A stretch of 64,000 nucleotides of DNA from Spirochaetales bacterium (GTDB lineage: Bacteria > Spirochaetota > Spirochaetia > Sphaerochaetales > Sphaerochaetaceae). The notes beneath the pieces are model-generated. The model had not been told where the DNA came from. It ran no database searches and saw only the letters and a program-made list of their open reading frames with translations. Both the position numbers and the translations under genes were made by a program. The stretch covers positions 1 to 64,000 of the forward strand of contig JAFUXI010000038.1 in the NCBI GenBank assembly GCA_017470995.1, in the 5' to 3' direction. The first letter of the stretch is position 1; every line of letters begins with the position of its first letter. This document shows, in pieces, positions 39,071-62,361 of this stretch.

Positions 39071-39174
39071 GCAGAGAACCCTGCTGTGAGTGGGAACCAT
39101 AAAAGCAGTGAACCCTACTGTAAGTGGGAACTATTTAAAAGCAGTGAACCCTACTGTGAGTGGGAACCATATTA
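39071..39174 (+). ncRNA. Type III antitoxin RNA: three tandem repeats (ToxI/CptI-like)
   Basis: Three direct repeats of 34, 36 and 34 nt start at 39071, 39105 and 39141. Each follows the pattern GCAG-TGAACCCTACTGTGAGTGGGAACCAT-A/T tail; differences are few (GA/TG, CTG/CTA, GAG/AAG, ACC/ACT). They abut without spacers and lie directly upstream of a ToxN-family gene, the diagnostic layout of type III systems, where each repeat folds into a pseudoknot that is cut out and bound by the toxin. The A-rich joins (AAAA-GCAG) are plausible cleavage points. The assignment rests on layout and partner gene. Confidence 0.88.
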
Positions 39175-39197
39175 GGCTGCCTTGTGCAGCCTAACTT
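39172..39197 (+). terminator. Terminator between antitoxin repeats and toxin gene
   Basis: TTAGGCTGC-CTTGT-GCAGCCTAA, a perfect nine-pair hairpin, followed by CTTCTTCTTTG rather than a pure T-run. In type III systems such a leaky terminator keeps antitoxin RNA in excess over toxin message. Confidence 0.8.
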
Positions 39198-39241
39198 CTT
39201 CTTTGACCAATTCCACACAATTTGGCACGAGTGAGGAACCA

Positions 39242-40741: not shown

Positions 40742-40805
40742 TGTATAAAAATGACAATTGTTCTCAGTGTTTCCGTGCCTCAGAATTGAAGGCAGGAGGA
40801 GCACA

Positions 40806-46258: not shown

Positions 46259-47758
46259 TCAGTTTTTCTCCAGGGTGATTCCTTCCAGGAACGTTGCTTT
46301 GCCATGCTCTGCATAGATTCCCAGAAGTGTACCGGTGAAACAGTTGCCCAACACGCATGAGGTGGTAAGACCGGCATAGGAACAGGTGTCTACGAGATTT
46401 CCGTTCACATGGAAACTGTAGGATTCGGGTCTGACCTCCATTGTCAGGGTGACTGACGAAGTTCCGTCTGCATCCAATTCAAGCTCGGCGGTTCTGGCCT
46501 CGAAGTCATGTACATGACGAACGAGGGTGCAGGACAGTTTGCCGTCGTTCTTCCTGATTCCAAGCCTGTAATGGTAGTCTGTTCTCAGCCATGCTGCTAT
46601 TCCGGCAGTACCTTCAAGGGTAGTGACATCAAGCTCGGTCTTGAATTTGCAGCTGAATGAATTCTGTCTCAGGGCAAGAAATGTAGGATGTCCCAATGGA
46701 GTATTGATATCCTCTTCTCCGACAAGTATAAGTTTTTTTTCATCATTGTGCAAAACAAAGCAATCGTTTTTTGGTGCCCTGACCTTTAAAAGAGGGAAGT
46801 CCGAGAGTCTTTTCCTGAAATCCACGAACAATGTTTTCTGGTCTTTCTGCTGAACCGGCAGAATGTCTTCCATCTCGATTTCGACCTTGCCGTCATTTCC
46901 GATGATCGGCCAGCCGTCTTCTGTCCATGTGACGGGAGCAAGGAAGGTTTCACGGCCCAATGTAGTTGCTGGAACCGTCGTGTTTCTTCTGGTTCCGAGG
47001 AAAACGGCAATCCATCTGCCGTCGGATAGTTCGAGTAAGTCGGCATGTCCGGTACACTGTATTTCATGGCCTTTTCTTTCGGCGTGGGAAAGAATCGGAT
47101 TGTAGGGGCATTTCTCATAAGGTCCGTGGATATCCCGGCTTCTGAGTACGCATACATGGTGGCCCATTCCTGTGCCGCCTTCGGCGATAATCAGGTAATA
47201 GTATCCGCCTCTGAAGTAGATGTGGGGGGCCTCCGTGGAGTGGCCTCCGCAGCTTTCAGCAATAGGACGGAATTCCTCAAGCATCTTTCCGGAGCTGGGG
47301 TCCATGAAGGCGCCGAAGATTCCTCGGGCCTTGGTGTATGGGTCTGTCTCGCCATTGGAGGTGTAGAAGCAACGACCGTCTTCAGTGAAGAAAAGGGATG
47401 GGTCTATTCCCGTTTTCCAGATGAACGCAGGAGCAGTCCACGGGCCGTGGATGCTTTCAGAAGATACAACGAAATTGAATTTCAGATATTTGTTTGTAGT
47501 AACTACATAGAAACGACCGTCATGGTGCCTGATTGTAGCTGCATACAGGCCCAGACTATCCGGGCTTTTGTCCAAATCCAGAGTCTCCGGGGTCTTGAGG
47601 ACGCTGTCGCAGTAGCTCCAGTTGACCAAATCCGTGCTTTCCCAGATGGTCACTCCCGGGAAATACTCGAAAGTTGAAGTAACGATGTAGTAATGCCCGT
47701 CAACATAACAGATTGACGGATCCGGATTGAAACCTGATATTATAGGATTTCTGTACAT
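46259..47758 (-). CDS. GH43 family glycoside hydrolase (beta-xylosidase/arabinosidase type)
   Basis: 499 residues, no signal peptide, so cytoplasmic. The five-bladed propeller opens NPIISGFNPDPSICYVDGHY (catalytic base Asp in NPDPS), continues with GIDPSLF (modulating Asp) and HSTEAPHIY (acid Glu); the last about 190 residues form the beta-sandwich seen in xylosidases of subfamilies with a C-terminal domain. Likely removes xylose or arabinose from imported oligosaccharides. The ATG lies six bases after TAATTT, with TTGACG 17 bases further up and no ribosome-binding site. Divergent from the ABC importer genes. Confidence 0.93.
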   Translation of the reverse strand: MYRNPIISGFNPDPSICYVDGHYYIVTSTFEYFPGVTIWESTDLVNWSYCDSVLKTPETLDLDKSPDSLGLYAATIRHHDGRFYVVTTNKYLKFNFVVSSESIHGPWTAPAFIWKTGIDPSLFFTEDGRCFYTSNGETDPYTKARGIFGAFMDPSSGKMLEEFRPIAESCGGHSTEAPHIYFRGGYYYLIIAEGGTGMGHHVCVLRSRDIHGPYEKCPYNPILSHAERKGHEIQCTGHADLLELSDGRWIAVFLGTRRNTTVPATTLGRETFLAPVTWTEDGWPIIGNDGKVEIEMEDILPVQQKDQKTLFVDFRKRLSDFPLLKVRAPKNDCFVLHNDEKKLILVGEEDINTPLGHPTFLALRQNSFSCKFKTELDVTTLEGTAGIAAWLRTDYHYRLGIRKNDGKLSCTLVRHVHDFEARTAELELDADGTSSVTLTMEVRPESYSFHVNGNLVDTCSYAGLTTSCVLGNCFTGTLLGIYAEHGKATFLEGITLEKN

Positions 47759-47892: not shown

Positions 47893-48849
47893 ATGAAAAA
47901 AGGTAAGTCTGGCGGGAACTCAGAGATTATGATCCGGGAACCTTTGACCAAGCGCATACGAAAAGACTGGAGCAAGAACAGAGGTCTGTATTTTCTGTTC
48001 ATTCCCGTGCTGGTGTACTACATCATATTCCACTACGGTCCTATGGCAGGACTGCTCATTTCTTTCCAGAACTACAAGCCCATCAAGGGTGTTTTCGGGA
48101 GCAAGTGGGTCGGCCTCAAGAATTATAAGGATTTCTTCAACAGCTACTATTTCTGGAGAGTTCTGAGAAACACCCTGAAGATAAGCGTAACGAACCTGAT
48201 CTTCAGCTTCCCGATGCCGATCATTCTGGCACTCATGATCAACGAGCTCAGGACAAAGCACTTCAAGAAAGCGGTTCAGACCATCACCTATCTGCCGCAC
48301 TTCATCTCCATTGTCGTCATAATGTCCATGCTTTCGGACCTGACCTCCAGAAACGGAGCCATCACTACATTCCTGAGTCACTTCGGATTCGAACCCGTGA
48401 CGATGCTTCAGGAGCCGCAGTACTTCCTTCCTCTTTATATTATTTCAGGTATCTGGCAAAACATCGGATGGAACTCGATCATCTACCTGTCGGCTATCAT
48501 CGGAATAGATGCACAGCTCTATGAGGCTGCAAAGATAGATGGAGCAGGCAAGCTTCGCCAGCTCTTCTCCGTCACTCTTCCGTGCCTCTTCCCGACAATC
48601 ATCATCATGTTCATCCTCCAGATGGGCAAGATGTTCAACGTCGGACACGAGAAGATACTTCTCATGTACAACCCGCTTACACTTGAGGTTGCAGATGTCA
48701 TCAACACATATGTCTACCGTGAAGGTCTGTTGAACATGAACTGGAGCTATTCCGCTGCGGTCGGAATGTTCAATTCGGTCGTAAGCTTCCTCCTCGTTTG
48801 GGGAACCAACAAGTTCAGCAAGAAGCTGAGCGGATCCGGTCTTTGGTGA
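47893..48849 (+). CDS. ABC transporter permease, LplB/YtcP-type sugar importer, subunit 1
   Basis: 318 residues from the ATG at 47893, which follows GGGAGAG; the 37 residues encoded upstream in frame look non-coding. Six membrane segments; the EAA loop is YEAAKIDGAGKLRQLFSVTL (about 215-234). This is the LplB group, which with YtcP-like and LplA-like partners imports oligosaccharides, often from pectin or other plant glycans. It starts the importer operon. No ATPase gene is in the window. Confidence 0.92.
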   Translation: MKKGKSGGNSEIMIREPLTKRIRKDWSKNRGLYFLFIPVLVYYIIFHYGPMAGLLISFQNYKPIKGVFGSKWVGLKNYKDFFNSYYFWRVLRNTLKISVTNLIFSFPMPIILALMINELRTKHFKKAVQTITYLPHFISIVVIMSMLSDLTSRNGAITTFLSHFGFEPVTMLQEPQYFLPLYIISGIWQNIGWNSIIYLSAIIGIDAQLYEAAKIDGAGKLRQLFSVTLPCLFPTIIIMFILQMGKMFNVGHEKILLMYNPLTLEVADVINTYVYREGLLNMNWSYSAAVGMFNSVVSFLLVWGTNKFSKKLSGSGLW

Positions 48850-48859
48850 GGAGGTGAGT

Positions 48860-49765
48860 ATGTCAGACAAACAGATTACAAAGCCCGTCAAGGCAATGAA
48901 GGTGAGATACACAAGGGGCGAGACGATTCTTCACATCGTAATCGTTATCATCTGTACGCTTCTTTCCCTTGCAATACTGCTTCCGATGCTCAACATCCTG
49001 TTCGGAGCTTTTTCCGATCCATATGATGTCATGAAGCATTCGGGACTGTTTCTTTATCCCATCAATCCGACGCTGTACAATTTCAGCCTGGTATTCAACA
49101 ATCCGAGCATCCTCACCGGTTATCTGAATACGATATTTGTCGTTGTGGTCGGAACCGGATTGAACGTACTTCTTTCCCTGATCGGAGCCTATGTGCTTTC
49201 CAGAAAGGGTGCAAGACTTGTCAAGTTCTTTACCTTGATGATTGTCTTCACGATGTACTTCCAGGGCGGAACAATCCCATCATACCTCGTCGTGGAATCC
49301 CTCGGACTGATCAACTCGCGGTGGTCGATGATCCTTCCCGGTGCCATCAGTACATTCAATATGATAGTCATGAGAACAGCAATGGCCCAGGTCCCCGACA
49401 GCCTGCCGGAATCTGCAATGATAGACGGTGCAAGCCATCCGCAGGTATTGTTCAGGATCATGACCCCGCTGTGCAAGGCGACTGTGGCTGTCATAGTCCT
49501 CTATTACGCCGTAGCGCACTGGAACTCATGGTTCTCCGCATTCCTGTATCTGCGTGACAAGACCAAGTTCCCCCTCCAGCTGATCCTCAGACAGATCCTG
49601 TTCCAGGAAGAGACGAACAGCATGGCTGCCGAGTCCCTGGCTCTGGACAGCGAAGCGGTCAAGTATGCAACCATCGTCGTTGCCACCGTTCCGATCCTCA
49701 TGGTTTATCCGTTCCTTCAGAGGTACTTCGTGAAGGGCGTCATGGTCGGAGCCGTCAAGGGCTGA
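48860..49765 (+). CDS. ABC transporter permease, LplC/YtcP-type sugar importer, subunit 2
   Basis: 301 residues from the ATG at 48860; GAGGAGG lies five bases upstream, so the in-frame GTG at 48854 is rejected. Six membrane segments with the EAA loop as ESAMIDGASHPQVLFRIMTP (about 185-205) and a C-terminal FVKGVMVGAVKG typical of this subunit. Pairs with subunit 1 to form the channel. 11 bases separate the two genes. Confidence 0.92.
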   Translation: MSDKQITKPVKAMKVRYTRGETILHIVIVIICTLLSLAILLPMLNILFGAFSDPYDVMKHSGLFLYPINPTLYNFSLVFNNPSILTGYLNTIFVVVVGTGLNVLLSLIGAYVLSRKGARLVKFFTLMIVFTMYFQGGTIPSYLVVESLGLINSRWSMILPGAISTFNMIVMRTAMAQVPDSLPESAMIDGASHPQVLFRIMTPLCKATVAVIVLYYAVAHWNSWFSAFLYLRDKTKFPLQLILRQILFQEETNSMAAESLALDSEAVKYATIVVATVPILMVYPFLQRYFVKGVMVGAVKG

Positions 49766-49781
49766 TGCAAAGGGTTTGAAG

Positions 49782-50540
49782 ATGATAAAGAGCGGACTGG
49801 TCAGCGCAACATTCAAGGGTCTCGAGGTGCAGCAGGTGCTTAGAATCGCACGGAATGTCGGATTGCAGGCCATCGAATGGAGTGAAAACCACCACATTCC
49901 CTGTGGGGATGAAGCCTTTGCCTCCACAGTCGGGAAGCTTACTGCCGATGCAGGCCTTGAAATAGCCGGTTACGGCTCATACTACCGTCTCGGCCAGGGA
50001 ATGGACATCCTGCCCAGTCTCAGGACCGCCAAGGCGATCGGAGCAAAACAGGTCCGCATCTGGGCCGGGACGAAGGCTTCCGCAGATGTCTGCGCCGAGG
50101 AGAGGAAAGCTCTGGTGAAGGAACTTGTGCAAGCCTGCAGGACAGCTTCCGATATGGGAATTGTCCTCAATCTGGAATGGCACAAGAATACTCTCACCGA
50201 TACCAACGAGTCGGGCCTTGCCCTGCTTCGGGAGACGGCCTGTGACAATCTGCACACGCTCTGGCAGCCTACGATGGCTCTGACCGAAGAGCAGAGGAAA
50301 GAAGGACTGGGGATGATTCTTCCGTATCTGTCCTATCTGCATGTCTATCATTGGGACCAGACCGGAAGAAGACCGCTGGAAGAGGGCAGAAGGCCGTGGG
50401 GTATCTACTTTGCGACCCTCGACCCCGAAAAAGACTATTATGCGCTTCTCGAGTTCGTCAAAGACGATTCCGAGCAGCAGTTTTACAAGGACGCAGACGT
50501 CCTGAAGGAGATGCTTGACTATGGCAGATCTGCACATTGA
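49782..50540 (+). CDS. Sugar phosphate isomerase/epimerase-like TIM barrel, first copy
   Basis: 252 residues from the ATG at 49782, after AGGG. Xylose-isomerase-like (AP endonuclease 2 superfamily) barrel with possible metal ligands in NLEWHKN (Glu), LWQPTM and YLHVYHWDQ (His). The family includes isomerases, epimerases, dehydratases and the TIM-barrel lyases that cleave 3-keto-glycosides; the member type is not decided. Last 20 bases overlap the next gene. Confidence 0.82.
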   Translation: MIKSGLVSATFKGLEVQQVLRIARNVGLQAIEWSENHHIPCGDEAFASTVGKLTADAGLEIAGYGSYYRLGQGMDILPSLRTAKAIGAKQVRIWAGTKASADVCAEERKALVKELVQACRTASDMGIVLNLEWHKNTLTDTNESGLALLRETACDNLHTLWQPTMALTEEQRKEGLGMILPYLSYLHVYHWDQTGRRPLEEGRRPWGIYFATLDPEKDYYALLEFVKDDSEQQFYKDADVLKEMLDYGRSAH

Positions 50541-51750
50541 CTGTTTTGACATGATCAATCCGTTCGTGATTGCCTCCAGCCCGGCTACGAGGGGCGCGGA
50601 CAATGTGATCAAGAGCTCGGCCTGCAAGCCGGGAGCAATCACCATGCGCAACTACGGCCACGGAATGGGTGGCGGCGGATTCTTCTATCCGTCCTTCGAT
50701 GCTGTACTCAAGGGCCAGCCGGCCTTCCATTCCCATGCAGTCGGAAAGCAGCTTCCCGATACGATGAGCTCTCTGGAGGAGTATTGTGAGGAAGTCAGGC
50801 GCGCACGCAGGGATATGTATCCCGAGACCAAGCTTTGGGCATCGGTAGGCCATTACCACGATATCGAGAAATATCCTGATTGGAAGGAAAGATGGGTCAA
50901 GGAAGCCAAGGAAGTGGTCGCAGCAGGTGCCGATGCCATCGAGCTTCACTTCAATACCCCGGGAGTCGCCACTGCTTCCGACAGACAGTTCAACTACTAC
51001 CAGCTGGTGGCAAACTGCACACGCATGATCAAGAAGGCTGTTCCGGGAACACCGGTGATGGTCAAGCTTGCCATAGAGGACTGTGATTGTCTTACAAGCA
51101 TCCGCGAGGCGGTTGCAGCAGGTGCCGATGCCGTAGGACCCACGGCAAGATGGAAAGCTTTCTACTTTGATCTTGACTGGAAGACAACACAGCCCAGACC
51201 GGGTTCGGGCTATGGCGGAACACAGGCTAATCCTCTTGTGTGTTTCGAAATCGCAGATGCAAGAAGCCGCGGAATAACAATTCCGATGTATGCAGGCGGC
51301 GGCGTGTTCTCATATGACCAGGCCCTGAGATACATCATGGCCGGTTCGGAAATGGTCCAGCTTGGAGCCATTGCATGCTCCGGAGGAATCAAGGTCTGCG
51401 AGAGAATCATCAGGCAGTGTTCGGAATGGCTGGATAAGAACGGCTATTCAAGCGTGAAGGAAATCAAGGGACAGGCCCTTCAGCTCTTCAATATGGACAA
51501 TGCCTTTGCCAAGCGCCGTCAGGACAAGCTCGGAGAAGCCTATAGACTCAGGGATGCAGATCCCGAGAAGTGCATAGGATGCGGACGTTGTACCGATGTG
51601 TGTTGGTATAAGGGAATCGAACTGGATGGAAAGAAGGCCCGCAAGACAGCCAACTGCATCGGTTGCGGTTATTGCTTCCAGGTCTGTCCGACCAAGGCCC
51701 TTGAGGTCGATGCCGCCGGTATTCTGAAGTCGGCATTCGAGGAGAAGTGA
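50521..51750 (+). CDS. PreA-like dihydropyrimidine/dihydroorotate dehydrogenase-type oxidoreductase with two 4Fe-4S clusters
   Basis: 409 residues from the ATG at 50521 after AAGGAG. An N-terminal FMN barrel resembles PreA/DHOD (INPFVIASSPATRGAD at about 12-27, AGADAIELHFNTPG, and GGGVFSYDQALRYIMAG for phosphate binding). The C-terminus has a two-cluster ferredoxin domain: CIGCGRCTDVC and CIGCGYCFQVCP (about 347-390). PreA normally works with PreT in pyrimidine breakdown, but PreT is absent and all neighbours are sugar genes, so the substrate is probably different. Electrons may pass to ferredoxin. Confidence 0.83.
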   Translation: MADLHIDCFDMINPFVIASSPATRGADNVIKSSACKPGAITMRNYGHGMGGGGFFYPSFDAVLKGQPAFHSHAVGKQLPDTMSSLEEYCEEVRRARRDMYPETKLWASVGHYHDIEKYPDWKERWVKEAKEVVAAGADAIELHFNTPGVATASDRQFNYYQLVANCTRMIKKAVPGTPVMVKLAIEDCDCLTSIREAVAAGADAVGPTARWKAFYFDLDWKTTQPRPGSGYGGTQANPLVCFEIADARSRGITIPMYAGGGVFSYDQALRYIMAGSEMVQLGAIACSGGIKVCERIIRQCSEWLDKNGYSSVKEIKGQALQLFNMDNAFAKRRQDKLGEAYRLRDADPEKCIGCGRCTDVCWYKGIELDGKKARKTANCIGCGYCFQVCPTKALEVDAAGILKSAFEEK

Positions 51751-51752
51751 CA

Positions 51753-52877
51753 ATGGGTGTGAAGGTCCTGCTCTGCGGCATGGGTGGTTACGGAGAGAAC
51801 TACGTCAGGGAATACCTGACGCGGGACGTCGTATCCTCATCCCTTGTTGCAATTGCAGATCCGTTTGCAGAGCGCAGTCCTCTGTATGAAGATGTCTGCA
51901 AGAGGGGAATTGAGATTTTCAATTCTCCCGCAGAATTCTATGAAAGCCATAGTGCCGACCTCTGCATAATATCATCCCCGATCCATACTCATTTTCCGTT
52001 TGTCATGACTGCTCTGGCGCACGGCAGCAATGTCCTTACGGAGAAGCCCGTCTGCTTCAGGAGCGAACAGTTCGAACAGATGCAGGCAAAGAGCCTCGAG
52101 ACCGGGCTGTTTGTCGCAGTCGGTTATCAGATGTGCTTTGCAAAGGACGTCCTTGCCCTCAAGGCCGACATCCTCAAGGGAATCTACGGTAAACCGGTCC
52201 GCATGAAGACCATCCGCCTGATGAGGAGAAACGACATCTACTACAACAGATCCTCCTGGGCAGGAGCTGTGTTCTGCAACGGTGAGCCCGTCTATGATTC
52301 ACCGTTCACAAATGCCTGTGCACATCAGTTCCAGACAATGGTATTCCTCCTCGGAAATGCAATGGATGAAAGTGAAACAGTGTCCTGCTGCAAGGGTTTG
52401 TTGGCAAGAATCAGGCCGAGTATCACAAACTGTGACACCGTTGAGTTAAAATTCACCACAAGGGGAAATGTAGATCTCTACTACTATGCCTCCCATGCGG
52501 TGGATGATGCAAAGATCGGCCCTCTGAGTGAATATGAATTCGAGAACGGCACCGTCTATGAGGATGGAAACGGATTCGTGGGCAAGCTCAATGACGGGAC
52601 GGTCATCGACTATATACATATGGATAAGGGTGAGCGCCTTGAAAAACTCTATGAGAGCGTAAGGTGCGTTCAGGAACACAGGAGCCCCGTCTGCACCCTC
52701 AAATGTGCAAGGACCCATACCGATGCCGTTCTGATGGCCCAGGACATGGGAGTCAGGGACTGCTCCGACAGGGCAGTGGGGAAAAAGGATGACAAGGGAA
52801 GCATCTATTACACCATAGATGGCCTGAGTCAGTTGTTACAGAATGCTTATGCGCAGTGGCGCATTGCAGAAATATGA
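51753..52877 (+). CDS. Gfo/Idh/MocA family oxidoreductase, first copy
   Basis: 374 residues from the ATG at 51753 (GAGGAG upstream; an overlapping GTG at 51747 is possible). N-terminal Rossmann domain GMGGYGENYVREYL (about 8-21) and the family motif TEKPVCF (near 97) bind NAD(P); the C-terminal alpha/beta domain shapes the sugar site. These enzymes oxidise or reduce sugars and sugar derivatives. It follows the PreA-like gene directly and precedes the binding-protein gene. Confidence 0.87.
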   Translation: MGVKVLLCGMGGYGENYVREYLTRDVVSSSLVAIADPFAERSPLYEDVCKRGIEIFNSPAEFYESHSADLCIISSPIHTHFPFVMTALAHGSNVLTEKPVCFRSEQFEQMQAKSLETGLFVAVGYQMCFAKDVLALKADILKGIYGKPVRMKTIRLMRRNDIYYNRSSWAGAVFCNGEPVYDSPFTNACAHQFQTMVFLLGNAMDESETVSCCKGLLARIRPSITNCDTVELKFTTRGNVDLYYYASHAVDDAKIGPLSEYEFENGTVYEDGNGFVGKLNDGTVIDYIHMDKGERLEKLYESVRCVQEHRSPVCTLKCARTHTDAVLMAQDMGVRDCSDRAVGKKDDKGSIYYTIDGLSQLLQNAYAQWRIAEI

Positions 52878-52916
52878 TCAAAAAGCGGTTCGTGAAACCG
52901 TAAAAAGGAGAAAAGA

Positions 52917-54494
52917 ATGAAGAAAGCATTACTAGTTCTGCTCGCAGTACTTCTGATTGCATGTCCTGTTTTCGCACAGGCCGCAACCGAAGCCAAGACA
53001 ACCAGCAACGCACCGGATGAGCTCACCTATTGGGCAACTCTGAACGCAGCCATCACTGCAAACAGCTTTGACGAGCTGCCGTACTGGCAGGAGCTTATGG
53101 CAAGGACAAACACAAAGGTTACATTCCAGCATGTTGCCGCCGGTAACAATGTTGCTGAGGCCTTCTCTGTCCTTACAGCATCACGCAGGTCCATGCCGGA
53201 CATCATCGAGTATCAGTGGATCAACTACGCCGGTGGCCCGCAGAAGGCAATCGACGACGGAGTCATCATCCCATTGAACGATTACCTTGACTATGCACCG
53301 AATTTCAAGAAGTTCCTTGAGACTCATCCCGACATTGCAAACATGGTCAAGACCGACCAGGGATATTACTACTGCTTCCCGTTCCTCAGAGGCGACAGCT
53401 ATGAGAACAACGCACTGCTCTACACAGAAGGTTGGGTCTACAGAACTGACCTCCTCGCAAAGGCCGGCGTAACAGCAATCCCCGAGACTCCGGATGAGCT
53501 CTATGATGCCCTTGTCAAGATCAAGGAAGCCGGAATCGTCGAGTGGCCGATTGCCATCAGAAGCGACCATATCAACAGAGTCTTCGGTCCCGGATTCGAT
53601 TCATGGGGAGAGAACGAAGGTATCTATGTCGACAACGGCGTTGTCAAGAGCGGTCTGATCGAGCCCGCCAGATATGAGTATCTGAAGTTCCTCAACAAGC
53701 TCTACACCGAGAAGCTTCTCTACAGCGATTATCTGACTCTCGACAAGAAGGGAATGGGAAACCTGATCCTCAACAGTACAACAGCCATCGGTTATGCTCC
53801 CGGCGGAAGCGGAATCGGAACATGGCTGCCCCAGATGCAGAAAGAAGACCCGACAGTCACCATGTCTTCCGCAAAGCCGCTCTCACCGGAGAAGGGCAGA
53901 CTCTCAATGTTCGCAAAGATGGATACCATCTATTCCAACGCCGGTGCTTCAGCAGCCATCACCACAAGCTGCAAGAACATCGAAGCAGCAATGAGACTTC
54001 TTGACTACCAGTTCAGCGAGGAAGGTCATCTTCTCGCCAACTACGGTATCGAAGGTGTTTCCTACAAGATGGAGAACGGCGAGCCTGTCTACCTTGAGGC
54101 TGTCCTCAATGCAGACGGAGTCCTTGATTCAACCAAGGCATGGCAGTACATGAGATTCACCATCAACGGACCGTTCGTACAGGAGCCGAAGGCACAGAAG
54201 TTCTACTATGCAGTTCCTGAGCTCCAGGAAGCTCTTACTCTCTGGGCACAGACAACTTATGGTGAGCATGACATGTCTCTGATCACAGTTTCTTCCGAGC
54301 ACGCCGATGAGTATGCAAAGATCGTCAACGACGTCAAGACATACGCAAAGGAGTGGGAGAACAAGTTCATCACAGGCGTTACTCCTCTCAACGAGCAGAC
54401 ATTCGCCGAGTACCAGGCCGGCCTCAAGGGTCTGAAACTCGAGCAGGCTGTCGCTTGGAGACAGGAAGCCTACGACGCTTACATCTCAAGATAA
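52917..54494 (+). CDS. Extracellular solute-binding protein, LplA-type
   Basis: 525 residues. The signal peptide MKKALLVLLAVLLIAC has a fair lipobox (LIAC, Cys16), so it may be a lipoprotein; cleavage after VFAQA is the alternative. The mature part is a large type 1/family 1 sugar-binding fold (DELTYWATLNAAITANSFDE, then a C-terminal EYQAGLKGLKLEQAVAWRQEAYDAY as in LplA proteins). It delivers oligosaccharide to the two permeases upstream. AAAAGGAG precedes the ATG. A strong hairpin follows its stop, as usual for binding proteins that must be made in excess. Confidence 0.9.
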   Translation: MKKALLVLLAVLLIACPVFAQAATEAKTTSNAPDELTYWATLNAAITANSFDELPYWQELMARTNTKVTFQHVAAGNNVAEAFSVLTASRRSMPDIIEYQWINYAGGPQKAIDDGVIIPLNDYLDYAPNFKKFLETHPDIANMVKTDQGYYYCFPFLRGDSYENNALLYTEGWVYRTDLLAKAGVTAIPETPDELYDALVKIKEAGIVEWPIAIRSDHINRVFGPGFDSWGENEGIYVDNGVVKSGLIEPARYEYLKFLNKLYTEKLLYSDYLTLDKKGMGNLILNSTTAIGYAPGGSGIGTWLPQMQKEDPTVTMSSAKPLSPEKGRLSMFAKMDTIYSNAGASAAITTSCKNIEAAMRLLDYQFSEEGHLLANYGIEGVSYKMENGEPVYLEAVLNADGVLDSTKAWQYMRFTINGPFVQEPKAQKFYYAVPELQEALTLWAQTTYGEHDMSLITVSSEHADEYAKIVNDVKTYAKEWENKFITGVTPLNEQTFAEYQAGLKGLKLEQAVAWRQEAYDAYISR

Positions 54495-54495
54495 T

Positions 54496-54554
54496 CAGAA
54501 CAACTGATTCAAAGCGCATTGGGGTGGCCTTCGGGCCACTCCAGTGCTGTTCTG
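54496..54554 (+). promoter_or_regulatory. Long UUCG-capped hairpin after the binding-protein gene
   Basis: GCATTGGGGTGGCC (54516-54529), loop TTCG, GGCCACTCCAGTGC (54534-54547): fourteen pairs (two G-T) closed by a stable UUCG loop. An outer stem CAGAACA (54496-54502) / TGTTCTG (54548-54554) encloses it. No U-run follows, so it looks like an mRNA-stabilising or attenuating element rather than a full terminator. Confidence 0.75.
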
Positions 54555-54585
54555 TCAATGGACGGTGAGAAAAGGAAGGTGGAAT

Positions 54586-56559
54586 ATGACGGAGTTTGAG
54601 AAGCTCAGGGATCTTCTTGAAGACGACTACAGCAGATTGAATGCAGGTGACCTGCTCAGACACTTTGCGCAGAGAGAAAAACCGGTCTATCTTTTCCGGG
54701 CTTCGGAGGCCGGGGAAATCAAGGACGACGGAATCATCGACGATGCAGAGAAGGTCATGCAGCATGATGTCTTCGGACACAAGTTCGACGGACCGATCGA
54801 CTGGATGTTCAATCCGACCACGGAGACCAGCAGGGACAACGAGTGGAGCTGGTCGCTTTTCCGCACCATCTATTGGCAGAGCCTTGCCAGGGCATACGCC
54901 ATCACCAAAGACGAGAAGTACACGAGGGAATTCCTTGCGCAGATGCACTCCTTCCGTGAGGCGTGGCCTGCAGACGAGTTCATCAAGGATACGACCTTCG
55001 TTCCCAAGCAGCCGTTCCCCGGAACCGCATGGAGAACCATCGAGACCGGAATAAGGATCTACACGACATGGCTTCCGGTTTTCGAAATCTTCCGCAGTTC
55101 GGAGGTATGGACAATCGAGGATCTCTCGAGCTTCCTTTTGGGAATCAGAGATCATGCATTGTTTCTGATGGGCCATTATTCAAATCACGACAGATCATCC
55201 AACTGGCTCAGTATGGAGACCAGCGCACTGCTTCAGATAGCCATCATGTTCCCTGAGTTCAAAGAGTCCAAGCAGTGGTTCGATACCGCCTACGGCCGCG
55301 TGATGCACGAGGTGCGCTACTGCTTCTCCGACAACGGGGTACACATGGAGAAAACACCCATCTACCACATGGTTGCCTCCATCGCCTTCGCTCAGGCAAT
55401 TGTCATGTGCGACAGAAACGGAATCTATGTGCCGGACTATGCCTGGGAAGTGATAAGAAGAAGTGCAAAATACATCTGCTCACTGGTCAAGCCTGACCTC
55501 TCCACCCCGATGATAGGGGATGCCGACAGGGACGATCTGACCACGAGACGTGCAGACACATCGATCTATGAAGGAATGAACCTGTCGTTCTTCCCGGATG
55601 ACCTCAATGAGCTTCGTGCATACATGAACTGGATGTACAGGCTGTTCGGAGACGAGCAGTTCCGCTATTTCGGAACCCTGAGAAAGGAAGGCGCCGCACC
55701 CGAGGATCTCGATTTCAAGTATTCGGAAGAAGGCGTCTATGTCATGCGCACCGGCTGGAATGCCGATGCCGATTACCTGTGCACCCATTCAAGCCAGCTT
55801 GAGAGAGGCGAGAGGTCAACTCACTCGCACAATGACAGCATGCATGCCGAAATCACGCTGGACGGTGAGGATGTCCTGGTTGACAGCGGAAGATACATCT
55901 ACAGATCCTCGATCTGGAAAGACTGGAGAGCATACTTCGTTTCCGCCCTTGCCCACAATACGCTCTATGTCGACGACCATGAGATGGGAGCGATTCCGAA
56001 TGTCGACAGGGTCCGCGGTGTACGCTGTCTCTGTCATTTCTTCGGAGAGAAGGACGGTCTCAAGATCATCGATCTGGAGCATAACGGATATGCTTATCTT
56101 CCGGATCCGGTCTTCCACAGGCGCAAGCTGATTCTTGCACCGCATTCGGTTGCTGTCCTTGTCGACTATGTGGACGGACCGGCAAGGGAAAACCACGATT
56201 TCAGATTGATGTACAACTTCAACACCAAGGATGTGAAGCTTAAGGACAAGCATGTGGATTACAGATCGAAGCACGGCAAAGCCTTTACCCTTGATTTCGT
56301 ATCCGATGCTGCATTCTCGGGCAGTCTTCTCTGCGGAAGCGAGGATCCTAAGGGCGGATGGATCAGCTACGGCTATCCCGTAAGGGAGCCCATAGGGCAG
56401 GTAACGATGGCCTATAACGGCAAGGCGCCATTTGTTTCAGCTACGATAGTCAAGGCAGAAGGTGCTGATGCTTCAATCAGACTTGATGGAGACAAGGCAG
56501 TTCTCCGCATAGGGAAAGAAACCTGGATAATCAGCAGAAAAGGAGTTGAAAAAGCATGA
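54586..56559 (+). CDS. Heparinase II/III family polysaccharide lyase-like protein
   Basis: 657 residues from the ATG at 54586 after AAGGAAGG. An N-terminal alpha/alpha-toroid domain (WFNPTTETSRDNEWSW-type region, MFNPTTETSRDNEWSWSLF at about 80) is followed by the beta-sandwich heparinase II/III domain with HSHNDSMHAEITLDGE and DSGRYIYRSS, then NTLYVDD. Relatives (PL12, PL15, PL17, PL21) cleave heparan sulfate, alginate oligomers and similar uronic polymers. No signal peptide, so it acts on imported oligosaccharides. ATGA overlap with the next gene. Confidence 0.85.
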   Translation: MTEFEKLRDLLEDDYSRLNAGDLLRHFAQREKPVYLFRASEAGEIKDDGIIDDAEKVMQHDVFGHKFDGPIDWMFNPTTETSRDNEWSWSLFRTIYWQSLARAYAITKDEKYTREFLAQMHSFREAWPADEFIKDTTFVPKQPFPGTAWRTIETGIRIYTTWLPVFEIFRSSEVWTIEDLSSFLLGIRDHALFLMGHYSNHDRSSNWLSMETSALLQIAIMFPEFKESKQWFDTAYGRVMHEVRYCFSDNGVHMEKTPIYHMVASIAFAQAIVMCDRNGIYVPDYAWEVIRRSAKYICSLVKPDLSTPMIGDADRDDLTTRRADTSIYEGMNLSFFPDDLNELRAYMNWMYRLFGDEQFRYFGTLRKEGAAPEDLDFKYSEEGVYVMRTGWNADADYLCTHSSQLERGERSTHSHNDSMHAEITLDGEDVLVDSGRYIYRSSIWKDWRAYFVSALAHNTLYVDDHEMGAIPNVDRVRGVRCLCHFFGEKDGLKIIDLEHNGYAYLPDPVFHRRKLILAPHSVAVLVDYVDGPARENHDFRLMYNFNTKDVKLKDKHVDYRSKHGKAFTLDFVSDAAFSGSLLCGSEDPKGGWISYGYPVREPIGQVTMAYNGKAPFVSATIVKAEGADASIRLDGDKAVLRIGKETWIISRKGVEKA

Positions 56560-57326
56560 GATTCGGTCTTTGTGCAGATATCAGAAATGTCATGGAGGTC
56601 CAGGAAGCCGGATACGACTTCATCGACGGAAAGCTCAACCAGATTGCTCTCTGGGAAGAGGAGGAGTTCAGATCCGTTTTGGAGGTCATGAAGAAAGCCT
56701 CCATCAGGATGGAACGCTGTGCCCTGCTGTTTCCCAAGAACATGATAGTGATCGGGGACAAGTACAACGAAGATGAGATGAGAGTCTATCTCGAGACCGC
56801 CTTTTCGCGCATGGATGCTCTCGGATGCAGACTTGTGGTTTTCGGCAGCGGAAAGAGCCGCTTCGTGCCGGAGGGTATGAGATGGCAGGATGCATACATT
56901 CAGCTGGTCAGTGTCACCCGCATTGTCGGAGAATTGGCCGCAAAGCACGGCATCGATGTGGCCATCGAGCCGCTGAACAGAGCCGAGACCAATCTGATCA
57001 ACAGCCTTGCTGAGGGTGCGGCCCTTCAGGCTGATGTAAACCTTCCGAATGTAGGGCTTCTTGCAGATGCCTATCATATGAGGCAGGAAGGCGAGGACAT
57101 GACAAGAATCCTGACCTGCGGACCGTTCATGCATACCCACATAGCACTCAAAGGCAGCAGGGCTTATCCTACGGAAAAGACCGAGGAAGTGATGGAATTC
57201 TTCCGTTTGCTGAAACAGGCCGGATATGACGGAACAGTATCCATTGAAGGCAAGAGCGGCGATTGGAAAGCGGATTCCGTTGTTGCGCTCAAAGTCATGA
57301 GGGAACTTGCACAGGAGGACAGATAA
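56556..57326 (+). CDS. Hydroxypyruvate isomerase/IolE-like TIM barrel, second copy
   Basis: 256 residues. Xylose-isomerase-like barrel with likely divalent-metal ligands in IEPLNRAETN (Glu), LADAYHM (Asp), MHTHIALKG (His) and VSIEGKSG (Glu), the complete set expected for an active member, clearer than in the first copy. Candidate activities are isomerase, epimerase or 3-keto-glycoside lyase. Start overlaps the heparinase stop (ATGA) and its stop overlaps the next ATG by one base (TAATG), so the genes are tightly coupled. Confidence 0.87.
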   Translation: MRFGLCADIRNVMEVQEAGYDFIDGKLNQIALWEEEEFRSVLEVMKKASIRMERCALLFPKNMIVIGDKYNEDEMRVYLETAFSRMDALGCRLVVFGSGKSRFVPEGMRWQDAYIQLVSVTRIVGELAAKHGIDVAIEPLNRAETNLINSLAEGAALQADVNLPNVGLLADAYHMRQEGEDMTRILTCGPFMHTHIALKGSRAYPTEKTEEVMEFFRLLKQAGYDGTVSIEGKSGDWKADSVVALKVMRELAQEDR

Positions 57327-58444
57327 TGGACAAAGTCAGAATCGGAATCATCGGGTTCGGTCACATGGGAAACCAGCACTCCACGGCTCTGCTTGCTGGA
57401 AAAGTGGACAACGCATGTCTTGCGGCAATTGCGGATATCAATCCTGCCAAACTTCAGAAGGCGAGGGCTCTTGCCGGGGATAAGGTTGCATATTTCAACA
57501 GTGCAGAGGAGCTGATGGACTCCGGCCTTGTCGATGCGGTGATTCCCACATGTCCGCATTACTATCATCCCGTATATGGAATCTATGCCCTCGAGCACGG
57601 TCTTAACTATCTGTGCGAGAAGCCTGCCGGAGTCTACACCAATGCAGTCAAGAAAATGAACGAGGTTGCGGCAAAATCCGACAAGGTCTTCGGAGTAATG
57701 TTCAACCAGAGGACCAATCCCCTCTATCAGAAGGCAAGGGACCTTGTCCAGAGCGGAGAGCTCGGAAGAATCCTGCACTGTCACTGGCTGATTTCTGCAT
57801 GGTTCAGACCCCAGTCCTACTATGACAATTCCGATTGGCGTGCCACTTGGAAAGGAGAGGGCGGCGGTCTTCTGATGAACCAGAATCCGCACAATCTGGA
57901 TCTCTGGCAGTGGATCTGCGGAATGCCTTCGCGTGTGAAGGCCACGGTCTACTACGGCAAGCACCGCAACATCGAGGTAGAGGACGATGTCTTTGCACTC
58001 ATGGAATACCCCGACGGTCACATCGGCACATACATCACCACGATAGCCGATGAACCCGGTACCAACAGACTTGAGATTTCGGGAACCAGGGGAAGGCTGG
58101 TGATCGAGAATGACAGCATTTCGTTCTCCAGATGCCGAGTCGATACCGACGAGTTCCAGAAGACATTCAAAGGGGAAATCGGACACCCTGAAATCTGGAA
58201 GTGCGAAGTTCCCGTCAAGGGTACCTACACATCTCATTGCGGTATTATCAAGAACTTCTGCGATGCCATCCAGAAGGGAACACCGCTGCTTGCCCCGGGA
58301 AGCGATGGAATAAAGAGCCTTGAGATAATCAACGCCATTCTGCTTTCCTCCTGGACGGGAGGGGACTGGGTATCGCTTCCGATCGATGCCGATCTCTATG
58401 AGAAGATGCTCAGAGAGAAGTGCGGCGGAAGTTTTGTTTGCTGA
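57326..58444 (+). CDS. Gfo/Idh/MocA family oxidoreductase, second copy
   Basis: 372 residues from the ATG at 57326, which shares its A with the previous stop; GGAGG lies upstream. Rossmann motif GFGHMGNQHS (about 10-19), NAD-contacting CEKPAGV (near 97) and the C-terminal KGEGGGLLMNQNPHNLDLWQ with the usual substrate-site His. A cytoplasmic NAD(P)-linked sugar oxidoreductase, operon partner of the second TIM barrel and the lyase. Confidence 0.9.
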   Translation: MDKVRIGIIGFGHMGNQHSTALLAGKVDNACLAAIADINPAKLQKARALAGDKVAYFNSAEELMDSGLVDAVIPTCPHYYHPVYGIYALEHGLNYLCEKPAGVYTNAVKKMNEVAAKSDKVFGVMFNQRTNPLYQKARDLVQSGELGRILHCHWLISAWFRPQSYYDNSDWRATWKGEGGGLLMNQNPHNLDLWQWICGMPSRVKATVYYGKHRNIEVEDDVFALMEYPDGHIGTYITTIADEPGTNRLEISGTRGRLVIENDSISFSRCRVDTDEFQKTFKGEIGHPEIWKCEVPVKGTYTSHCGIIKNFCDAIQKGTPLLAPGSDGIKSLEIINAILLSSWTGGDWVSLPIDADLYEKMLREKCGGSFVC

Positions 58445-58454
58445 AGAATTGTTG

Positions 58455-58466
58455 TAGAATGGCCTC
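58455..58466 (+). promoter_or_regulatory. -10 element of the AraC regulator gene, probably leaderless
   Basis: TAGAAT (58455-58460), six bases, ATG. No Shine-Dalgarno sequence lies upstream of the start; the -35 is weak (TTTTGT or TTTGTT at 16-17 bases). Confidence 0.45.
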
Positions 58467-60281
58467 ATGACGAAGACTGAAACTCAGAAGAAACTGATAA
58501 GAAGCTGGAGTTTGTCATACATCCTCGTATCGACTATCCTTCTGGTACTGTTTCTTGTTTTCGCCATGGCCGGAATCTACACAGTACGAAACTCGGTAGA
58601 CAAGGCAAACCGTGCTGCATTGGGAGCTCTCAGCAATGAGTTGAACTCCGCCTTTCTGGAGGTCGATGCCCTCTGTGAGGAGCTTATCCTCTCCGACACT
58701 TTCAAGGCTTTTTCCTCAAAAACCCTGGATGATTACGATGCCTATACTCTGTATCAGCGTACATTGGACCTGAGGCACATGGTCGACAGCCGTTCTCATC
58801 TGGAAGACTGTATTCTTTATTCCGTAAGCAACGACCTGTACATAACTGCCCAATACTACGGGAAACTGTCAAACATCAGCAGAAACGATGTACTTGTGAT
58901 TTCAAAATCGAAAGTGCTCGGAGAACTGATTTCGCAGAGTAGCCAGAACTATACCTATGTAATCGATGTTTCCGATGATGGAAACGGTTACAACCTTCTT
59001 GTGATAAGGCCTCTGAGCTTCGTGCGCTCTGCAACTATCGGGGATCTCTGTGTTGCGGTTCTCGTGGATGTGTCGGACATTATTCCCAGCATTGTTTCCC
59101 AGACATATGACATAGTCATGTACGATACAAACATCCGGAGGGAGCTCTTCCATTTCGGTTCCCATATGGACGGTCACTATGAATCTGAAAAACTGAGGAA
59201 TCTGGAGCAGACGGGCGGAAGGATAGGGCATGACAGGATTCTGGTTTCCGAGTCATCCATCAGAGGTGTCAATTATTATCTGATAGTGGATGAGAGCGAG
59301 TATTTTCGCGATCTCTTTTCGGTCATCTGGCTTGTGGGTATCATCCTGATCCTGGTAATCGCTCTTGCCCTTGTAGTGATCAGACGTATCGTTTTCAGAC
59401 ACTGGTACAGGTTCTCGGATGCCGTCGAGGCTTCCGGTGCGGATTTGAAGGAACTGGGAAAGGTAAGCAATCCATATGCTCCTTTTGTGTCCTCCGTGAC
59501 GAGGCTGAAGGAAGAAAACCGCTCCCACATCATATCGCGCCTTGTGCTGACCGAAGAATCTGCACAGTCTGCCGATGAACTCATTGATATGGGGATATTC
59601 TCCAAGGAAAGTGCCTACTGCATAGTACTTGCGATGCTTTCCGGCCAGAAATCGCAATCCGAACCGAAGACGGACATTACGGAAGACCTTTCCGAAAAGG
59701 GAATCAGATGCATTCCGTTTGACAGTGACTACGATGTGTCTCTCATAGCAGAAGCCAACACTGAGGATTTTGGCAAAATCCATACGGTTCTGGAAAATGC
59801 CACGGATATTTCGTATTTTGCCGTTTCCAAAACCGTCGACGATCCGGTCCAGATTCACAGGATGTACGTTCAGGCCTGCAACATCATGGAGTATCGAAAA
59901 ACCATGGTGATGTCGGATTCGGGAAGCGAGGGCTATGCAGTCTATCTCGCGGCGCTTTCCGAGATAGAGAACAACTACAACGATGTCCAGCTCAATGTCT
60001 CCCTGATTGCAGACAGGCTCGGAGTATCGATCGTTTATCTTTCAAAATGCTTCAAAAAGCACAAGGAAACCAATATTTCAGATTATCTGACTGATTTCAG
60101 GATAGCAAAGGCCAAGGAGATTCTCTGTGACAAGAAGTGCTGGAACCTCTCGATGAAGGATGTCTCCGAGCGATGCGGCTTCGGCAGCATAAGAACATTC
60201 ATGAGGGTTTTCAACAAAGCCGAGGGAGTTTCTCCCGGTCAGTTCAAGGCCGGTGCCCTGGGATTGGATAAGGAGGGCTGA
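58467..60281 (+). CDS. Membrane-anchored AraC-family transcriptional regulator
   Basis: 604 residues. Membrane segment about 15-38, an extracytoplasmic sensor domain about 40-275 (Cache-like by layout), a second segment about 280-305, a linker and a C-terminal AraC double helix-turn-helix (about 505-600: VSLIADRLGVSIVYLSKCFK and MKDVSERCGFGSIRTFMRVF). This one-piece sensor-regulator design is common next to Lpl/Ytc-type importers and probably senses the external sugar. It likely controls the surrounding locus. Start predicted leaderless. Confidence 0.9.
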   Translation: MTKTETQKKLIRSWSLSYILVSTILLVLFLVFAMAGIYTVRNSVDKANRAALGALSNELNSAFLEVDALCEELILSDTFKAFSSKTLDDYDAYTLYQRTLDLRHMVDSRSHLEDCILYSVSNDLYITAQYYGKLSNISRNDVLVISKSKVLGELISQSSQNYTYVIDVSDDGNGYNLLVIRPLSFVRSATIGDLCVAVLVDVSDIIPSIVSQTYDIVMYDTNIRRELFHFGSHMDGHYESEKLRNLEQTGGRIGHDRILVSESSIRGVNYYLIVDESEYFRDLFSVIWLVGIILILVIALALVVIRRIVFRHWYRFSDAVEASGADLKELGKVSNPYAPFVSSVTRLKEENRSHIISRLVLTEESAQSADELIDMGIFSKESAYCIVLAMLSGQKSQSEPKTDITEDLSEKGIRCIPFDSDYDVSLIAEANTEDFGKIHTVLENATDISYFAVSKTVDDPVQIHRMYVQACNIMEYRKTMVMSDSGSEGYAVYLAALSEIENNYNDVQLNVSLIADRLGVSIVYLSKCFKKHKETNISDYLTDFRIAKAKEILCDKKCWNLSMKDVSERCGFGSIRTFMRVFNKAEGVSPGQFKAGALGLDKEG

Positions 60282-60283
60282 GA

Positions 60284-61294
60284 ATGCTCAGAATTGCTGT
60301 AATAGGTTGCGGAGCAGTTTCACGCAACCATGGCAAAGCGCTCAAGAACAACCGGTATGCAACGCTTGAATACTGCGTTGACATAATTCCCGAAAGGGCG
60401 AAAGCCTTTTCGGAGACATACGGGGGAATTCCCCTGACAGACTATCGGGAACTCTTTGACAAGAATCTGGATGCCGTGCACGTCATAACACCGCACAATA
60501 CGCACCCTCAGATCGTAATGGACCTGCTTGACCACGGAATCAACGTCTTCTGCGAGAAACCCCTGGCCATTACGGTCAACGAGGCAAAGCAGATGATCAG
60601 AAAAAGCGAGGAAACGGGCAAGCTTCTGGGTGTCTGCTTCCAGAACAGGCTCAACAAGGCGACTCAGGAAGCCAAGGAAATACTCGAGAGCGGCAAGTAC
60701 GGGAGAATCGTCAGCGGAATGGTTCTGGTGACATGGGACAGAGGCGGCAAGTACTACTCGGAGTCCCCATGGCGCGGCAAGTACAGCGGTGAAGGCGGCG
60801 GATGCATAATCAATCAGAGCATCCATACCCTTGATATGCTGGATTACCTTTCCTCCTACTGCGGCGGGGTGGAGAGCCTCTCCGGCTTTGACGGGAAGCT
60901 CAGACAGACCGATGACTATGAGGTTGAGGATACGGGAATGGCTCTTATCAACCTCAGCTGCGGGGCTCAGGTAGTGGCTTTCTGCACCAACTGCTACAAG
61001 GGTTCAAAGGTCTGTGATCTGGAACTCAGGCTCGAGCACGCCGTGATTACGGTGAGACAGAGCGGACTGACGATCGTGGAGGAGGACGGGAACACCATTT
61101 TCCATCCTGCAACCGTACTTACGGGCGAGAAGTCGGAGTGGGGTGTAAGCCATGGACTTTTGATTGACCGCTTCTATGAAGCCCTGATTGACGGAACTCC
61201 GTTTGTAGGTGATTGCCATACCGCCTTGGCCGCAGTTTCCATCGTCAATGCCATCCAGCACAGCAAGGGCAGACTCATTAAAGTAGAACGATAG
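60284..61294 (+). CDS. Gfo/Idh/MocA family oxidoreductase, third copy
   Basis: 336 residues. Rossmann motif GCGAVSRNHGKAL (about 8-20), CEKPLAIT (near 93) and GEGGGCIINQSIHTLDMLDY with the conserved His in the substrate site. NAD(P)-dependent sugar oxidoreductase, closer in length to the second copy than the first. It lies three bases after the AraC gene, so part of its transcript may be read with the regulator. AGGAGG precedes the ATG. Confidence 0.9.
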   Translation: MLRIAVIGCGAVSRNHGKALKNNRYATLEYCVDIIPERAKAFSETYGGIPLTDYRELFDKNLDAVHVITPHNTHPQIVMDLLDHGINVFCEKPLAITVNEAKQMIRKSEETGKLLGVCFQNRLNKATQEAKEILESGKYGRIVSGMVLVTWDRGGKYYSESPWRGKYSGEGGGCIINQSIHTLDMLDYLSSYCGGVESLSGFDGKLRQTDDYEVEDTGMALINLSCGAQVVAFCTNCYKGSKVCDLELRLEHAVITVRQSGLTIVEEDGNTIFHPATVLTGEKSEWGVSHGLLIDRFYEALIDGTPFVGDCHTALAAVSIVNAIQHSKGRLIKVER

Positions 61295-61311
61295 CTTATA
61301 AGGAATATATC

Positions 61312-62361
61312 ATGGTAAAAATCAGCATTAAAGAAGCAAAAGAGAGAATCGTTGAGATCTTTATGAAGGCAGGCATGAATGAAGATGAAGCTGCCATTAT
61401 GGCACAGATGCTTGTCGAAGCCGACCAGCGCGGTGTGAACTCTCATGGAATTCTATGTACGGCCAGATACGTGCGTCTCATCAGGGAAGGGAAGATGAGA
61501 CCCAACATGGAGAAAAAGGTTCTCAGAGACAACGGGGTCGTCGCAGTGTGGGATGGAAACCGCTCGAGCGGACAGCTGTTGGGATACAGAGGAATGGAAG
61601 AAGCCATCGCCAAGGCCAAGAAGAACGGGGTAGGCATTGTGTGCATCAAAGGCACCAACCATTTCGGAGCATTGGCCTATTATTCACAGATGGCACAGAA
61701 GGAAGGTCTTATCGGTATCACCCTGGGTACCGGGGATTCCACCATGGCTCCGTTCGGCGGATGTGAGAAGGTCATCGGAAACAATCCCATTGCCGTTGCC
61801 GCGCCTGCAGACAAACAGGTCTCACCGGTTCTGGATATGGCCATGACGGTTGTCGCAAACGGCAAGCTCACGAATATGAGGCGTCAGGGTATCGAGGAGA
61901 TTCCGGAGGGCTGGGGTCTGGACCGCGACGGACTTCCTACAACTAAGATGAGCGAATACTACACGGTTCCGCCGCTTGCAGGATACAAGGGTTGGGGCAT
62001 GGCAGTCATGGTGGATATCCTTGCCGGAATCCTTTTCGGTGGCGGAACAGGGGACAGGGCAAAGGACGTTTCCGAAGGACCGAGCCTCTTTATCATGGCT
62101 TTGGACATCGATGCCTTCAACGACAAGGCCAAGTATCTGGAAGATATCGATTCCAGAATCAGCGAGCTCAAGAGCTCCAAGCCTGCAAAGAACAATACCC
62201 ACGGTATTTTGATGCCTGGTGAGATCGAGGCCGGTCGTTTCGAGGCTTCCGAGCAGTCGGGATATGTGGATGTGCTTCCGGAGAACCTGAAGATGGTAAA
62301 CGACCTTGCAGCCGAGATGGGTATCAGACAAATCGAAGTCAAAGAGACAAAAGATAATTGA
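61312..62361 (+). CDS. Ldh family (malate/L-lactate dehydrogenase-type) oxidoreductase
   Basis: 349 residues. The family hallmarks are SHGILCTARYVRLIREG (about 44-60), GTNHFGALAYYSQMAQ with the catalytic-region His, and GNNPIAVAAPA. This fold is distinct from common lactate dehydrogenases and includes diketogulonate and ureidoglycolate dehydrogenases and YjmC, found in uronate-catabolic operons of Bacillus. It reduces 2-keto acids with NAD(P)H. AAGGA lies upstream. It is the last gene of the locus. Confidence 0.9.
   Translation: MVKISIKEAKERIVEIFMKAGMNEDEAAIMAQMLVEADQRGVNSHGILCTARYVRLIREGKMRPNMEKKVLRDNGVVAVWDGNRSSGQLLGYRGMEEAIAKAKKNGVGIVCIKGTNHFGALAYYSQMAQKEGLIGITLGTGDSTMAPFGGCEKVIGNNPIAVAAPADKQVSPVLDMAMTVVANGKLTNMRRQGIEEIPEGWGLDRDGLPTTKMSEYYTVPPLAGYKGWGMAVMVDILAGILFGGGTGDRAKDVSEGPSLFIMALDIDAFNDKAKYLEDIDSRISELKSSKPAKNNTHGILMPGEIEAGRFEASEQSGYVDVLPENLKMVNDLAAEMGIRQIEVKETKDN

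Follow-up and report, generated by a model that had tools for sequence, protein, structure and literature searches.

The DNA studied here is a stretch of 64,000 nucleotides (the window) from a 1.9 Mb metagenome-assembled genome (MAG) of a gut or rumen Sphaerochaetaceae bacterium, whose nearest relatives are Sphaerochaetaceae and Spirochaetales of rumen, pig and horse gut (several of these hosts being taken from isolate names). Within it, an operon-like run of plus-strand genes at 47893–62361 probably encodes the import and the oxidoreductive, non-hydrolytic breakdown of glucuronic-acid-containing oligosaccharides, a reading that draws on sequence kinship, modelled folds and analogy with known pathways. 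That glycosides are widely cleaved by oxidoreduction instead of hydrolysis has been recognised only lately, and a conserved operon, some 13 genes long and common to gut spirochaetes and Clostridia, would extend this chemistry to polyuronates. Open reading frame (ORF) calling and Pfam and NCBIfam profile searches recovered every enzyme listed by an earlier, sequence-only reading: three Gfo/Idh/MocA oxidoreductases (GIM1–3), two xylose-isomerase-like TIM barrels (TIM1, TIM2), a heparinase-type lyase (HEP), an oligosaccharide importer, a PreA-like protein, an Ldh-family reductase (LDH2) and, divergent beside the run, a GH43 gene. The gene set is not a product of chance, because about 26 loci, spread over two phyla, contain it.

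A glucuronide-type dehydrogenase and two distinct barrels

Sequence comparison makes GIM2 a clear homologue of P2B11, a glucuronide-3-dehydrogenase of solved structure (8TDI; function as in the enzyme name deposited in the PDB). The two proteins are 48.3% identical across 362 positions and match with 322 bits (E 6.8e-95), every other PDB chain scoring at most 114 bits. GIM2 is therefore what a 3-keto-glycoside route calls for, a C3-dehydrogenase akin to a characterised glycoside-3-dehydrogenase. As to the second oxidoreductase, which would reduce the 3-keto sugar, both GIM3 and GIM1 are encoded, with the reducing direction as a candidate role. The best PDB matches of GIM3 are 8TDI and 3q2k/3q2i, the latter of which we take to be WlbA, a UDP-GlcNAcA 3-dehydrogenase; GIM1 is divergent, with a Rossmann domain recognised by Pfam and PDB matches that are all weak. 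A motif common to GIM1–3 and 8TDI, YY-x2-[SA]-x-W, was considered as a substrate-specific signature and dropped, its strict form occurring in 13 of 80 GIM2 relatives.

The sequence-only reading had named kinship with inositol dehydrogenases and with hydroxypyruvate or inosose isomerases as the finding that would speak against a 3-keto route. No operon protein reaches the NCBIfam cut-off for IolG, IolE or hydroxypyruvate isomerase. Weak matches do exist, but they lie far below the curated cut-offs (GIM2 against IolG, 105 bits of 355; TIM2 against hydroxypyruvate isomerase, 53 of 353), and GIM2 matches 8TDI three times better, making an inositol, inosose or hydroxypyruvate pathway extremely improbable.

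The two barrels carry different active sites. E134-x-H136, Q164, H189 and E226 of TIM1 are invariant (13/13 sequences). In C-glycoside eliminases, as described in PMC10628242, the β5 metal ligand is a Glu with the catalytic His two residues on, and the corresponding AtOGE residues are His132/His134, Asp163, His189 and Glu233. TIM1 has this eliminase pattern (E-x-H, H, E), with a metal site and a His two residues past the β5 ligand, save that the invariant Gln164 replaces the Asp ligand. Its AlphaFold model (pLDDT 94.1) is closest in fold to AsbF, a dehydratase, and to DgpB-C, the 3-oxo-puerarin cleaving enzyme. TIM2 lacks E-x-H; its metal-site residues E138, D171, H195 and E231 are invariant, and its model (pLDDT 94.7) best matches ketose 3-epimerases and YcjR (TM 0.82/0.80), so that it shares both the fold and the E/D/H/E metal site of YcjR. 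Since TIM1 has the site and fold of an eliminase, and TIM2 has the fold of an epimerase or YcjR and no E-x-H, we infer that TIM1 carries out the elimination and that TIM2 hydrates or epimerises. TIM2 and GIM2 (56556–58444), which the sequence-only reading had offered as an oxidase–eliminase pair, are unlikely to be one, TIM2 being epimerase- or YcjR-like. The oxidoreductive 3-keto route that it proposed is nevertheless the best reading of the operon, given the kinship of GIM2 with 8TDI, that of GIM3 with WlbA-type enzymes and 8TDI, and the sequence and fold of TIM1.

The YcjR-like fold of TIM2 also bears on a different order of events, in which GIM2 would oxidise C3, TIM2 would epimerise the 3-keto sugar at C4 as YcjR does, GIM3 would reduce it, and a lyase or hydrolase would cut afterwards, the 3-keto chemistry leaving the glycosidic bond intact. 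Such a pathway is real in Escherichia coli (YcjQRS, by annotation), where it likewise comes with an importer and dehydrogenases, and the tightest triad of our operon is HEP–TIM2–GIM2. We nonetheless consider this remodelling rather unlikely: it accounts neither for TIM1, whose site and fold are those of an eliminase type, nor for the PreA-like protein and GIM1, and the operon encodes no phosphorylase or other hydrolase save GH43, itself absent from the clostridial loci seen. The E. coli system differs from the operon in lacking a lyase, a PreA-like protein and a barrel of eliminase type, and YcjQ aligns poorly with the operon's Gfo/Idh/MocA proteins.

Conservation of the unit and its flavoprotein cassette

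The operon genes overlap or almost abut: HEP and TIM2 meet in ATGA, TIM2 and GIM2 in TAATG, where the TAA stop of TIM2 overlaps the GIM2 ATG at 57326. The ATG at 47893, preceded by GGAG, is the real start of the operon, in agreement with the sequence-only reading; promoter motifs were not enriched over shuffled sequence. For synteny, we compared the about 26 loci that hold the lyase or the PreA-like gene, scoring adjacency where the contig allows both positions. HEP and TIM2 are neighbours in 24/24 loci, TIM2 and GIM2 in 23/23, and TIM1 and the PreA-like gene in 21 of 22 (20 of these share one gene order and one has it inverted). These loci come from Spirochaetota (Sphaerochaetaceae) and from Bacillota (Oscillospiraceae, Lachnospiraceae, Clostridiaceae and other Clostridia), the blocks being rearranged in the latter. 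GH43 adjoins the gene of permease A in 11 loci and a relocated gene of the solute-binding protein (SBP) in L137. Lyase-less glucuronide-dehydrogenase clusters were also seen (L056:1862–6703, as well as L052, L054, L058, L059 and L065), comprising a GIM3-like gene, an H-x-H barrel (YHNH, the AtOGE pattern) and/or an HEN barrel, GIM2 and TIM2; because the TIM2–GIM2 pair is found in these clusters too, the pairing is independent of the lyase.

The most conserved protein of the module is the PreA-like one (75% mean column identity). When GIM2 orthologues are defined by at least 55% identity within the family Sphaerochaetaceae, the PreA-like gene is present in 25 of 26 genomes with an orthologue and in 0 of 113 others (Fisher p about 1e-26, inflated by shared ancestry), and it was not found in genomes with only 36–49% identical GIM2 relatives. 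Among 393 sampled Spirochaetota genomes, the gene is confined to Sphaerochaetaceae, and no close plasmid copy was found. The protein combines a DHODH-like domain with two 4Fe-4S motifs, yet it scores 116.8 of the 335 bits of the NCBIfam PreA equivalog, and Pfam and NCBIfam reveal no PreT-like gene in the operon. Its lack of the active-site Cys of mammalian dihydropyrimidine dehydrogenase was not used as an argument, as E. coli PreA equally lacks this residue.

The conserved unit reaches upstream to 42214, beyond the run as first delimited. A cassette of an Old Yellow Enzyme-family protein (OYE), a short-chain dehydrogenase (SDR) and an FAD-binding flavoprotein adjoins the module at its GIM3 end or its GH43 end in several loci and is therefore part of the unit: in L142, L143, L145, L138, L139 and L040 it lies directly 3' of GIM3 (the ORF filter overlooked some members, and others are cut off where the stretch ends), and in L144, as in the window, it lies on the upstream side of GH43. 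In a Bacillota MAG (L063:1314–7612), a GIM2-type gene has beside it genes for a TIM barrel, an OYE, a zinc alcohol dehydrogenase, an SDR and an FAD protein, the cassette there travelling with a glycoside dehydrogenase. Just 5' of the cassette in the window, the gene at 40758–42110 encodes a secreted, PelZ-like pectate lyase (465 bits to NF041900, cut-off 840; no Pfam match); it was rejected as a part of the module, not being beside it in L144, the sole comparable upstream flank.

Lyase, importer and proposed pathway

HEP has both the N and the C domain of Hepar_II_III by Pfam, and its PDB matches are PL12 chains only. Its residues N220, Y274, H427 and H471 (numbering of the 54544 ORF) are invariant among 17 homologues and align with N240, Y294, H424 and H469 of PL12 (the positions in the aligned PDB chain differ from these by 24). 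Asn240, Tyr294 and His424 are listed for PL12 in PMC12088678, so that HEP shares the domains and the catalytic Asn/Tyr/His of PL12 heparinase III. It differs from that enzyme in falling far below the HepC equivalog models (130.6 of 700 and 114.6 of 600 bits), in belonging to a cluster without sulfatases and in its probable location: inspection revealed no signal peptide, which suggests a cytoplasmic enzyme acting on imported oligosaccharides. Ulvan dehydratase was tried as a model for HEP as a terminal dehydratase and set aside, no tie to the heparinase family being found in the excerpts of PMC8511951. The kin of the SBP are the alginate-binding AlgQ1/AlgQ2 and Smon0123 (PDB 5GUB/5GX6/5GX7/5XS8, according to PMC5717064), with alginate and unsaturated chondroitin (glycosaminoglycan) disaccharides as ligands. 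Between the SBP and lyase genes, a strong RNA hairpin may attenuate or process the transcript and keep the SBP more abundant, a common arrangement.

In the pathway that we propose, the SBP and the permeases would import uronate oligosaccharides, and HEP would eliminate the C4 substituent of a uronate in the cytoplasm, to give a uronide that is trimmed or 4,5-unsaturated. GIM2 would then oxidise C3 of the terminal uronide (D-gluco or unsaturated) with NAD, and the metal and His136 of TIM1 would serve to abstract H2, with loss of the aglycone from C1. TIM2 could serve as hydratase or epimerase on the keto-sugar, and the 3-keto group would be reduced by GIM3, perhaps also by GIM1 and the SDR. The PreA-like protein, OYE and the FAD protein may reduce the C=C bonds left behind by the eliminations, and LDH2 a 2-keto acid. 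The families of these last four proteins and of the lyase are known for chemistry on C=C bonds and 2-keto acids, to which the extra enzymes of the unit seem suited. With a polysaccharide-type lyase and flavin ene-reductases tied to a glucuronide-3-dehydrogenase, unsaturated keto-sugars would seem to have a new fate. Oxidation, elimination, hydration and reduction by two Gfo/Idh/MocA and two TIM-barrel proteins are proven for levoglucosan (PMC7676230), and by analogy this template would map onto GIM2, TIM1, TIM2 and GIM3.

Several observations weigh against this pathway. TIM1 carries Gln at the metal-binding Asp position of the eliminases, and both barrels differ in length from the known hydratases (256 aa for TIM2, about 325 residues for LgdB2 and about 340 for AtHYD); TIM2 could be an epimerase. 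Where HEP is missing, an eliminase candidate lies nearby in 6 of 10 loci with TIM2 (some contigs being short). Furthermore, own-genome searches located GH88/105, a KduI-family protein and UxaC elsewhere in the genome, and because GH88/105 and UxaC are present, hydrolysis of unsaturated uronides in the same cell is possible. The sequence-only reading had taken ordinary uronate enzymes to be missing; this holds for the module, which has no KDG kinase or aldolase, but not for the genome, and we rejected the absence as evidence.

The GH88/105, KduI-family and UxaC genes would suit an ordinary lyase-based use of uronates, in which HEP would yield an unsaturated uronate that is converted to 2-keto-3-deoxygluconate (KDG), with the oxidoreductases and barrels replacing KduI/KduD-type steps on free monosaccharides. 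The PL12-like lyase and the AlgQ-like importer fit such a route, in which the reduction of DEH or diketo acids could fall to SDR and LDH2. We regard it as unlikely, however, because the nearest solved relative of GIM2 acts on glucuronides and not on free uronates (by its deposited name), because of the lack of KDG kinase and aldolase in the module, and because an eliminase-type barrel would be superfluous. As a separate observation on GH88/105, the domain (352 positions) lies in our genome inside a frame that stays open for about 830 residues (L151, G000 contig 35), and similarly long GH88/105 frames occur in most of the genus.

Within the oxidoreductive pathway, a more specific and distinctly unlikely possibility is that both eliminations hit one uronide. 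GIM2 would oxidise the lyase-made 4,5-unsaturated glucuronide at C3 and TIM1 would remove the aglycone at C1–C2, giving the pyranone 5-hydroxy-4-oxo-pyran-2-carboxylate (comenate), a product derived on paper and conditional on lyase and eliminase acting on the same residue. Aromatisation of the ring would drive cleavage, and the PreA-like protein, a relative of the uracil-reducing dihydropyrimidine dehydrogenase, would reduce the ring for assimilation together with OYE and the FAD protein. If true, this would be an anaerobic sugar route via an aromatic-like intermediate; a single search of open-licence papers that took in the term comenic acid listed none containing it.

Modular C3 oxidation and elimination, followed by hydration and reduction, has reportedly been described for human-gut oxidoreductive glycosidase modules, including the P2B11 enzyme, by the Withers group (Nature 2024). 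GIM2 and the modular C3 oxidation scheme link our operon to these modules, whereas here they come together with a lyase resembling PL12, a ferredoxin-type flavoprotein resembling PreA, an OYE–SDR–FAD cassette and an AlgQ-like importer. The levoglucosan pathway LgdA–LgdB1–LgdB2–LgdC (PMC7676230 and PMC10066097) similarly pairs a Gfo/Idh/MocA enzyme with PF01261 TIM barrels and an ABC importer, but its substrate is non-uronic, GIM2 scores 66 of 650 bits against the levoglucosan dehydrogenase model, and no barrel of LgdB2 length is encoded. With DgpA/DgpB-C and the Agrobacterium AtOGE/AtHYD enzymes (PMC8563793 and PMC10628242), the operon shares the TIM1 fold and the E/H-x-H catalytic pattern; it differs from them in that no DgpB-like small subunit was seen in the operon and in its glucuronide-type dehydrogenase. 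For these reasons, and given an importer of the uronate-oligosaccharide type, the flavonoid C-glycosides that the sequence-only reading had listed for testing are unlikely substrates. Its notion of a new route survives for the composition only: the class of pathway is already known, and what appears new is its combination with a PL12-like lyase and with flavoproteins that resemble ene-reductases, no description of this gene set having been found in the open-licence literature searched.

Gene coordinates and a neighbouring toxin gene

Table 1. Features of the conserved unit, in window positions.
Feature	Coordinates	Strand	Evidence
OYE: Old Yellow Enzyme-family (Oxidored_FMN), candidate ene-reductase	42214..43566	+	Pfam 1e-28; weak NCBIfam kin NamA/BaiCD/bilirubin reductase
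SDR: short-chain dehydrogenase	43563..44342	+	Pfam/NCBIfam profile
FAD_binding_2 flavoprotein (fumarate-reductase/L-aspartate-oxidase superfamily)	44339..46258	+	Profile matches and linkage
GH43 with GH43_C2 domain, divergent, no signal peptide by eye	46259..47758	-	Pfam 2e-83
ABC permease A (UgpA/LplB type), operon 5' end	47893..48849	+	Pfam/NCBIfam; ATG with upstream GGAG
ABC permease B	48854..49765	+	Pfam/NCBIfam
TIM1: AP_endonuc_2/xylose-isomerase-like TIM barrel, candidate 3-keto-glycoside eliminase	49776..50540	+	Pfam, invariant residues, model fold
PreA-like: DHODH/dihydropyrimidine-dehydrogenase-like domain and two 4Fe-4S motifs, candidate flavin ene-reductase	50521..51750	+	Pfam/NCBIfam, motifs
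GIM1: divergent Gfo/Idh/MocA oxidoreductase	51747..52877	+	Pfam Rossmann domain; weak PDB matches
SBP: solute-binding protein, signal-peptide-like N-terminus	52917..54494	+	Kin of AlgQ1/AlgQ2 and Smon0123
Strong RNA hairpin	54515..54550	+	Fold z-score -3.5
HEP: heparinase II/III (PL12-like) lyase, predicted cytoplasmic	54586 (start approximate)..56559	+	Pfam domains, PL12 residues
TIM2: AP_endonuc_2/xylose-isomerase-like barrel, ketose-3-epimerase/YcjR-like	56556..57326	+	Residues, model fold
GIM2: glucuronide-3-dehydrogenase-type Gfo/Idh/MocA enzyme	57326..58444	+	8TDI match
AraC-family regulator, membrane-spanning	58467..60281	+	Pfam/NCBIfam
GIM3: Gfo/Idh/MocA oxidoreductase, candidate 3-keto reductase	60284..61294	+	Nearest 3q2k/3q2i (WlbA type) and 8TDI
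LDH2: Ldh_2-family reductase	61312..62361	+	Pfam 5e-98; under all NCBIfam equivalog cut-offs

Further upstream in the window, a ToxN-type toxin gene (39071–39772; Pfam 6e-44) has directly on its 5' side a 36-nt repeat in 2.9 copies, for which no Rfam family was called. By its sequence, this arrangement is the textbook layout of a type III toxin–antitoxin system.

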